From Phoronis ovalis (taxonomy: Eukaryota; Phoronida; Phoronidae): DNA of 35,482 bases. Numbering within the stretch: the first letter of the stretch is position 1; each line of letters begins with the position of its first letter. A program made the position numbers and the translations under genes. The notes beneath the pieces are model-generated. The model saw only the letters and a program-made list of their open reading frames with translations, made no database searches and had not been told where the DNA came from. Below are positions 1,270 to 4,200 of the stretch, piece after piece. Location of the stretch: the NCBI GenBank assembly GCA_028565635.1, contig JAOXYB010016076.1, positions 1 through 35,482 on the forward strand, in the 5' to 3' direction.

Positions 1270-4200
1270 GTTTGTATGTCCTGTAATTTATATATTAAAT
1301 ATAATTAAATTAAGTTTTAGAACAAAATAGTAAAGACTTACAAACATATCTTTTCAATATCATCGTAGCATCTTGTCAGTGGTCAGGACATCTGATGGGG
1401 GACACGTCTTTCTTTCTTCGAGACTGAAATCAGATGATGAAGCAGTTCGAATCTCTTATCTCTCTCTTAAGCTTAGATCTGGTGATCAGGCATTATAATA
1501 CAATTTTGTTATCATCTGCAACTTGCGTGTTCACTTTCTGAAATTAAGCATCAATAGAATGGATGAAATTCTCCTCTGATATCTATAAAATTTCATATTG
1601 TGTGCAATATCTCGTTCTGTGTAATATTGTAGCATTGTTTCATATTTTACCTTTCAGGTGCTCGGAAAGGATCATCCTGATGTAGCGAAACAGTTAAATA
1701 ACTTGGCTTTGCTGTGCCAAAACCAAGGCAAATATGAGGAGGTATGATTTATACTTTGGCACATCACTCAAATTGATAACTTCAAGTGTACACACTACAT
1801 TTTAAAGGCAATGCACAGTACAGTTAGTTTTGTTCTGTTTAATACTAGTATACATCACTTGAACTTGGCAAAATTTTTAACTCAGTGACTCCTTGACCAT
1901 TGCTCTTGATATCAGAGAATCCGAAGTAGAAAGCAGAATCCTGAAAGTCTCACTGCTTTGTCTTCACTAACATTCACCAATGTCATCATTCTATTTCTTC
2001 AATTTTGTTCTGTACTGAAACTTATTTGTTATGTTTATTTCATAATTCGCATTGATTCGCAGAATTCTGTGTATTCAATTAGAACAGTTATTTTGTTTCA
2101 GCTTTTTTACTTTATTTTTGAGTTTGCTTTATGCTCTTCAGGATTTCTTGTTTGAGGTCCCCACAGATTCGGCGCCTTTCCTTAACATCTCACTTGTATT
2201 AAGATACATTTGCTACTTTCCTCAATAGGTGGAGCAGTACTATCGCCGAGCTTTGGAAATATATGAGTGTAAACTTGGAATTGATGATCCTAATGTAGCT
2301 AAGACTAAAAATAATTTGGTAAGACTTGCATGTCACATGAATGCAAGGAAATGTTAGCTTGATGTTGAAGCTGTACGACCTCCAATTCTTCAGTTGTGTT
2401 ACTGTGTATATCAAACTTGCACTATTGATTTGGCGAATTTAGTGCATTATGCATTTGAAATTAAAAACGAAAGCCACGCATGTTTTTATTCTTGTATCAA
2501 AAAGTTACAAATTGTAATTGAGTTAAAAGTATTAATTGAGGAGTACAGATTCTGTAACGAGCTAACATGATTTTTTTTGTCTTGTACACCTTCTAGATTC
2601 TGTCTAGTGCATGTGCATGCTTTTCTCTTGCTTACCAGGTGGAGTTGTACTACAAACGAGCTTTACGTATCTACACAAAAGAGTATGGGGAATCTAACTC
2701 TAATGTAGCCAAGACTAAGAATAACCTGGTAAGGGATGCATGTTATGTGTTGTTTGGTATTCTGTTTAGTTTTTGTCGTGTTAAATATTACAGGTGGAGA
2801 AGCACTATACGAGAGCTTTAAAAATGTACGTGAAAGCTCTTGGAGATGATAATCCCAATGTCGCTAAAACTAAAAACAATCTGGTAAGCGTGTAACTATG
2901 CAACAGTAGGACAGTAAGATTTTTGTTTTCAAAAGTAATTGACGTACACCTTTTATGCATATATGCATACATTTAGTGAAAATTGTTGAAATTATGTTTT
3001 ACTCTCCTTATGCTTGCCATAGTTACATAGAAAACTGTGTACCTTTTTGAATAGATTCTATTTATTACTATTAATTAATGCTTAAAACTTACTTTGAACA
3101 AATATTTCCTATTGCAGTTTATAAATTTTATTTCAAAAATAATACTCTGAAATTGATATTCTAAGAAATTAATAGCTAGTTTAGCTGTAGTATACACTGA
3201 AGATGCAATGGTGGCGGGTATGCAATGCTCACACTGTGTTGACGAAGTTCATTAAGGTAATGCATGTAACATTGTATGCATTTTTCCCTTTTTTGTACTA
3301 AATGTTTTTTCTTGTCTGCAGTGTGTGTGTTGGCTACTATATTTAAAAGATATTATGTTGTTAATTTGTATTCAATGTTTTGTGCACTGTACATTAACAT
3401 TCATGTATGGTGTAATATCTATGTGAGATTATTACCTAGAGAAAATGTTTATTTCTTGAGTTACTTCATTAATGAGGTAAGTTGCATATAACCCTAAATT
3501 TTGCTAAGTATGTACTTGGAACCCTAAATTTGGTTGCAAGTTTATTTTCAATAAGAATTCAAGCAATAGTGAATTCCTTATTTTTTATATGTCCAACGGT
3601 TTTTTTGTTTTCTTAATTTCAAGTAAAAACAATAATTTGTTTATTTCAGGCATCAGCGTATTTAAAGCAAGGCAAATACAAACAAGCAGAGGTGTTGTAC
3701 AAAGAAGTTCTCACTAGAGCACATGAGAAAGAGTTCGGAAAAGTCGAAGGTACTTATTGTGATTATAAGTTGGTTTCTTGCATTAAGATTTTTTTTACAT
3801 TACAGACAGTATTTCATGGTTCAAGTACGTGTAGCTTAGATATTCAAAATTCCTGTACAAGACCACATTCTATAGCTCACTATATACTAATTACTTTCAC
3901 AACTGAAACCTAATACATATTGCATAGAAGGCTTTTGTAATTCATTTTAGGAGAATTATATATCACATTTATTTGAATATAATAATGTAAAAAAAATACT
4001 TTACAGTCGGGAGTAAGCTGGCTAGTAAGTATCGGAATTTAATCCAACTGGAGTCTGGGAATATCCGTAAATGTTATCAAAGCATGATGGCTTTCACTAT
4101 AATACACATAAACATCGTCAGTAATAATTGAATGTAATTTTAGGAGTAAAAAAAAAACTTATGAATAAAAACTATTCATGTGAATATCTTTTTTCACAGC

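Follow-up and report, generated by a model that had tools for sequence, protein, structure and literature searches.

The first 14 kb (+ strand) of a 35,482-bp contig of Phoronis ovalis (the whole contig is called 'the window' below) carry the 3' part of a kinesin light chain (KLC) gene, whose 5' part lies off the contig, and within it an array of three adjacent versions of one exon. We read this array as an old cluster of mutually exclusive exons that keeps the groove for cargo peptides, swaps the neighbouring outer face of the TPR domain, and is chosen from partly under the direction of RBFOX; in our judgement this combined reading has a probability of about 70%. An active question is how the TPR domains of KLC both recognise cargo and inhibit the motor, and structural papers of 2026 place these domains on the heavy-chain coiled coils and a motor head. 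If true, a fixed groove beside a swapped outer surface would be a natural experiment in which three proteins, alike in all other respects, could serve to separate the two functions. The ways in which animals diversify kinesin-1 would also come to include splicing of the TPR core, and the reading gives a concrete prediction for RBFOX.

The KLC gene and its three exon copies

The KLC exons in the window, with the three variants termed A, B and C, are as follows.

1168..1269, +, exon encoding TPR3, constitutive by position
1658..1741, +, exon before the array, encoding the end of TPR3 and TPR4 helix A and ending in phase 0
2229..2318, +, variant exon A, 25/30 residues identical to human KLC1, the closest of the three
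2639..2728, +, variant exon B, 19/30 identical to human KLC1 and 19/30 to A
2794..2883, +, variant exon C, 20/30 identical to human KLC1 and 20/30 to A
3650..3749, +, exon after the array, starting in phase 0
4950..5067, +, exon encoding the insert between TPR5 and TPR6
6143..6251, +, exon encoding TPR6
6340..6519, +, C-terminal exon, read from the sequence by its junction letters
10732..10856, +, C-terminal exon, read in the same way
13306..13366, +, C-terminal exon, read in the same way
13770..13847, +, last coding exon, with a TAA stop, read in the same way

Each variant exon is 90 nt long and of phase 0/0, is preceded by AG and followed by GTAAG, and contains no stop; the flanking exons (1658-1741 and 3650-3749) join the array in phase 0, and no U12-type splice sites were seen by eye. 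In all of these particulars the array is exactly as an earlier note on this DNA had described it, and the 19-20 of 30 shared residues given there for each pair were recovered on recomputation (A-B 19/30, A-C 20/30, B-C 19/30). The corresponding nucleotide identities are 55/90, 65/90 and 59/90. Within the first 14.5 kb, tblastn between the copies returned full-length matches (E 2.0e-9 to 1.2e-10), and the next-best matches after the array copies scored at most 24.3 bits and overlapped another KLC exon. When exons A and C were used as queries against the assembly (G000, 77.4 Mb in 4,805 contigs), exactly the three places of the array were matched at E 0.001.

Nonsynonymous divergence by the Nei-Gojobori method (dN 0.36 for A-B, 0.26 for A-C and 0.29 for B-C) is far below synonymous divergence (dS saturated beyond correction for A-B, 0.87 for A-C and 2.46 for B-C), indicating that the copies are old and all under purifying selection. 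By these measures the three exons are an old tandem duplication of one KLC exon, with selection acting to preserve each of them.

As to the identity of the gene, the product spliced with exon A can be aligned over residues 1-200/201 with chains of human KLC1 (best E 1.1e-132) and human KLC2 (best E 8.2e-129), and the TPR domain contains the insert between TPR5 and TPR6 that is a KLC hallmark. The exons after TPR5, which are specific to true KLC, produced two matches in the assembly at E 0.001, both of them on the array contig. By this search the array gene is the only true KLC gene found in the 77.4-Mb assembly, and the earlier suggestion of duplicated exons in one KLC gene, diversified by splicing and not by paralogues, holds. 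A human TPR1-2 query had no match in the assembly at E 1e-8 (150 of 411 candidates scored), so the assembly may be incomplete.

KLC-like TPR repeats occur at at least 200 similar places in the assembly (211 matches, a lower bound that includes the array gene). Outside the array contig, the matches listed were at most 48% identical, and most of those listed belonged to long open frames, reaching 1731 aa (for example on contigs C1094, C1930, C2549 and C3322); these KLC-like matches point to a large TPR gene family. In an NCBIfam scan a generic PPR repeat alone passed its cut-off, scoring 20.3 bits where 20 were required. Seven stretches of viral contigs matched the search pattern, none of which was confirmed, and among genome contigs 49 of 151 matching stretches were confirmed, all in prokaryotic records and with best-segment identity of at most 57%; these were of no use for comparing the layout of exons.

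Constant groove residues and a variable outer face

The exon unit corresponds to V358-L387 of human KLC1 (by alignment, with the numbering anchored on N343/N344 and N386) and runs from TPR4 helix B through the TPR4-5 loop into the beginning of TPR5 helix A, which is where the earlier note had placed it. All three copies end in the same nine residues.

2292..2318, +, invariant NVAKTKNNL block of A, with the TPR5 helix A groove residues K382, T383 and N386 (KLC1 numbering)
2702..2728, +, invariant NVAKTKNNL block of B
2857..2883, +, invariant NVAKTKNNL block of C

The last 27 nt of the exons contain seven variable nucleotide sites, all synonymous, such that none of the nine residues is changed; in 20,000 random placements of seven changes in this stretch, not one stayed wholly synonymous. 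In the first 63 nt, by comparison, 13 of 21 residues vary. Overall, 17 of 30 residues are invariant, and a random placement of 17 would make the last nine all invariant with P 0.0017. The variable positions (KLC1 numbering 360, 361, 363, 367, 368, 370-373 and 375-378) fall on TPR4 helix B, an outer helix, and on the loop between TPR4 and TPR5, residue exposure being judged from human structures. All three exons keep the TPR signature positions of helix B. Over 358-378, A and human KLC1 carry a net charge of -2, and B and C one of +1; among the changes, KLC1 E367 becomes R or K, a reversal of charge.

Published structures or mutagenesis place several residues of this segment in the groove. As described in parts of PMC3314626 and PMC6214655, N386 hydrogen-bonds the Y-acidic (JIP1) peptide, K382 and T383 belong to a polar patch, and T383 is bonded to N343 in KLC1. 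Helix B is the outer helix in KLC TPRs, and a nanobody epitope that includes residues of TPR4 alpha 8 sits at the outer surface, remote from the peptide (same parts of PMC3314626 and PMC6214655). The contrast drawn in the earlier note between a conserved nine-residue end and a variable helix B face and loop was thus right in outline. Its conclusion that splicing would yield three cargo-groove versions is not supported, since K382, T383 and N386 all sit in the invariant block, where the nucleotide changes are silent. On this evidence selection is keeping the groove residues of the exon segment fixed.

We regard it as unlikely that the exons, used exclusively, would give three different cargo grooves. 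Such an outcome draws on the position of the segment in the cargo-binding TPR domain, with its end in the groove-lining TPR5 helix A, and on the start of the exon at the end of a hinge (residues 353-358) that lets the domain close on Y-acidic peptides, according to portions of PMC3314626 and PMC6214655; a small effect on domain closure, and so an indirect one on the groove, is therefore conceivable. Against it, the published groove residues are identical in A, B and C despite the seven varying nucleotide sites, and the amino-acid changes sit in the outer helix and loop.

Under the reading that we prefer, of a groove kept and an outer face swapped, the A, B and C isoforms would have in common those residues of TPR5 helix A that bind peptide on the concave side, and would keep the signature positions of TPR4 helix B. 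The solvent-facing side of that helix and the TPR4-5 loop would be exchanged, including the reversal at E367. W/Y-acidic cargo peptides would be expected to bind all three isoforms through a similar groove, as its concave residues are common to them, and the isoforms would differ instead in contacts at the outer face or edge of the TPR solenoid. The location of the changes and the shift in net charge suggest that these contacts could be heavy-chain docking in the folded, inhibited motor or the binding of adaptors at the edge. A 2026 cryo-EM structure of kinesin-1 in its inhibited state, described in part of PMC13371920, has one TPR domain clamped onto the heavy-chain coiled coils via the inter-helix turns of its repeats and the other holding a motor head with TPR2-5 helices. 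On the other hand, passages of PMC13078783 describe TPR1, and not TPR4, as the key contact in TPR docking on heavy-chain coiled coil 1, which counts against a role for the TPR4 outer face. That an RBFOX-gated three-way switch retunes kinesin-1 autoinhibition or edge-adaptor binding through this face, with the groove frozen, is put forward as a tentative and rather doubtful proposal. If true, it would amount to a control set by splicing, specific to tissue, that acts on the activation of the motor and leaves the choice of cargo peptide alone.

Exclusive or serial use of the copies

Exons A, B and C probably form a mutually exclusive cluster, each mRNA taking one of them; the exclusive use proposed in the earlier note is in this respect likely, as judged from the DNA. 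Two features make it the best reading: the 30 encoded residues misfit the KLC repeat, and the intron between B and C is very short. KLC TPR repeats are 42 residues long. The groove asparagines N301, N344 and N386 are spaced 42-43 apart (in the sections of PMC3314626 and PMC6214655 that deal with them), and joining two copies, or skipping all of them, would break this register, which counts for exclusive use. The two-repeat Pfam model TPR_12 scores the single-exon forms at 129.5 (A), 123.0 (B) and 131.8 (C) bits, a form with B and C joined at 119.5 bits, and a form with all three exons skipped at 79.4 bits. As the exon length is a multiple of three, double inclusion and skipping are both frame-neutral, so nonsense-mediated decay cannot enforce exclusivity.

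The intron concerned is the following.

2729..2793, +, B-C intron, 65 nt, the shortest intron among the KLC exons in the window

Among 62 inter-exon gaps estimated in kinesin and myosin genes, from all 49 kinesin and all 81 myosin profile matches, none was 65 nt or shorter; the smallest was 124 nt (103 nt before correction for profile overlap) and the median 406 nt, with a method that can read through, and so miss, short introns. The KLC intron at 6252-6339 measures 88 nt, so introns under 100 nt do occur here. The 65-nt intron suggests steric hindrance for B-C joining only: the close spacing would hinder the joining of B to C, whereas the A-B intron, at 320 nt, poses no steric bar to joining A to B. 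As for pairing between the RNAs of different introns, six duplex pairs gave z of -2.9 to 0.8, the best being the A-B with the B-C intron, a weak signal when taken without relatives. The introns around B can pair at 2551-2632 and 2729-2793 (z -2.9, 60 shuffles), a weak pairing that would loop out B.

The alternative that A, B and C are cassette exons, of which more than one may enter an mRNA in series and give a longer TPR solenoid, seems to us improbable. All exons are of phase 0/0 and multiples of three, as serial inclusion would need, and the B+C join incurs no penalty under the one-repeat Pfam model TPR_10 (134.3 bits, against 124.7-131.4 for the single forms), but 30 residues fall short of the 42-residue repeat, TPR_12 ranks the join under each of the A, B and C forms, and none of the 62 estimated gaps is as short as the 65-nt intron. 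The NPHP3 TPR model points both ways, as its score for the join (96.0) equals that for the A form (94.7) and is lower than those for B (125.6) and C (128.1).

Equally improbable, in our estimate, is that A alone is used, with B and C as copies that are in decay or seldom spliced. A is the nearest to human KLC1 (25/30, against 19 for B and 20 for C), and the pyrimidine tract of C looks weak by eye. However, B and C keep their frame, both splice signals and the TPR signature residues, and each retains the nine-residue block intact through synonymous change only.

Finally, there is next to no likelihood that the array is an assembly artefact or a chance resemblance, because misassembly would give near-identical copies and these differ at 25-35 of 90 nt, an identity too low for assembly duplication to be plausible, because repeated exon arrays are likewise present on a myosin contig of the same assembly, and because the strong homology in the full-length tblastn matches among the copies excludes chance.

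That contig carries a myosin heavy chain gene (G000:C3048:2483-17891) in which stretches 89-119 and 122-152 of the Myosin_head profile each occur twice and stretch 561-602 three times. Exclusive exon clusters are known in lophotrochozoan muscle myosin (part of PMC3912159), and these repeated myosin exons, as in the known Mhc clusters, serve as a positive control in that such arrays are normal in this assembly. At the end of another contig (G000:C1860:11625-11854), two neighbouring stretches both correspond to one part of the kinesin motor profile (273-323 and 274-295), which is either an edge artefact or a repeated exon.

Candidate RBFOX sites and comparison with known systems

Choice among the exons is probably controlled in part by RBFOX, for which the array has candidate sites.

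2327..2332, +, TGCATG, RBFOX-type site, at +9 of the A donor
2608..2619, +, TGCATGTGCATG, two RBFOX-type sites in tandem, lying 31 and 25 nt upstream of exon B
2737..2742, +, TGCATG, at +9 of the B donor, in the B-C intron and 57 nt before C

TGCATG is the most over-represented hexamer in the 60-nt exon flanks, with four copies in 280 positions against 26 in 35,477 in the window. The binomial p of 6e-5 is uncorrected and post hoc, the motif having been noticed by eye before testing; after Bonferroni correction it becomes ~0.02 over ~280 hexamers and ~0.25 over all 4096. The copies at 2327, 2608, 2614 and 2737 form the densest cluster on the + strand, at a density reached by 0.19% of 475-nt windows, and the core GCATG (five copies at the array) reaches the same density elsewhere too, in 0.42% of windows overall. 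On both strands of the whole window there are 38 copies of TGCATG against 28.6 expected, and four of 100 shuffles reach 38, so the motif is mildly common here. The 21-nt donor stretches of A and B are identical at 15 of 21 positions. As to the regulator itself, an RBFOX-like RRM exon is found at G000:C3:38935-39042 (81% over 36 aa) and a second RBFOX-like exon at G000:C3:40899-40985 (66% over 29 aa, with the match running over one stop); RBFOX-like matches on other contigs do not exceed 39%.

An RBFOX site after an exon favours that exon, and one before an acceptor represses it. By this rule the site after A would favour A, the tandem sites before the B acceptor would repress B, and repression of C may come from the site within the 65-nt intron. 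More RBFOX would thus be predicted to give more A and less B, with C perhaps down as well; the response of B is ambiguous, as B has sites on both sides. There are precedents in which UGCAUG directs the choice between mutually exclusive exons, namely C. elegans egl-15 (5A/5B) and unc-32 (7a/7b) and mouse FGFR2 (8/9), as related in parts of PMC3585155 and PMC2880598. In each the motif lies around the competing exons, as it does here. The tandem pair before B has a counterpart in FGFR2, where tandem UGCAUG before exon 9, the downstream exon, represses exon 9 at its 3' splice site (same parts of PMC3585155 and PMC2880598). Unlike in these cases, as far as those parts describe them, the KLC array has three exons and sites on both sides of B, and its control by RBFOX is predicted from sequence. 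We found no report of an RBFOX-gated outer-face switch in any KLC in the open-access literature.

In its architecture the array resembles the clusters of lophotrochozoan muscle Mhc and those of a human set of mutually exclusive exons, which, in the portions of PMC3912159 and PMC9741552 that describe them, likewise consist of adjacent homologous exons of equal length and phase, with key structural residues kept and others changed. It differs from the known exclusive clusters in its host, which is KLC, in having three members and in encoding a segment of a TPR solenoid. The term KLC does not occur in the main text of PMC9741552. Our search of the open-access literature found no report of duplicated or mutually exclusive exons in KLC, the two terms co-occurring only in a study of mouse splicing at large; the array would thus be a mutually exclusive cluster in a gene for which we found none reported there.

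Kinesin light chains are nonetheless diversified in other animals, as in the vertebrate paralogues, the splice forms of KLC1 and sea urchin KLC. A squid optic-lobe KLC family of several forms, perhaps made by splicing, was reportedly described by Beushausen et al. in 1993, so that several KLC forms would be found in a lophotrochozoan; these forms may involve the same segment and would then be prior art. For the sea urchin, part of PMC12784935 describes one KLC gene with several spliced isoforms. KLC splicing is placed in the C-terminal region in part of PMC13333304, and is not localised to that region in the relevant parts of PMC12784935 and PMC4801060. Unlike in the splice forms so described, C-terminal or unlocalised, it is the TPR core that is swapped in the Phoronis gene.

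Several features elsewhere in the window and assembly may be recorded here. On the minus strand at 16382-20460 lies a multi-exon gene that by eye is like enolase-phosphatase E1 with an acidic tail, a putative name; the exon for the acidic tail had no Pfam or PDB match. Two exons at 29049-29541 (+) code for an ASPP2 / RASSF8-type Ras-association domain (PF21712, PF21801; PDB 2uwq). Similar 'accacaggg / accatgggt' repeats, both non-coding, were seen by eye at 9080-9330 and 19700-20060, and are perhaps the remnant of a mobile element. At the very end of the contig, an identical 77-bp stretch is present at 35301-35377 and 35406-35482, 105 bp apart, and probably marks where the assembly broke. The mitochondrial contig (C1114, 15.7 kb), whose gene order may resemble that of lophotrochozoans such as molluscs, reads by eye cox3-atp6-nad3-nad2-cox1-cox2 along one strand and nad1-nad6-cob-nad4L-nad4-nad5 along the opposite one.
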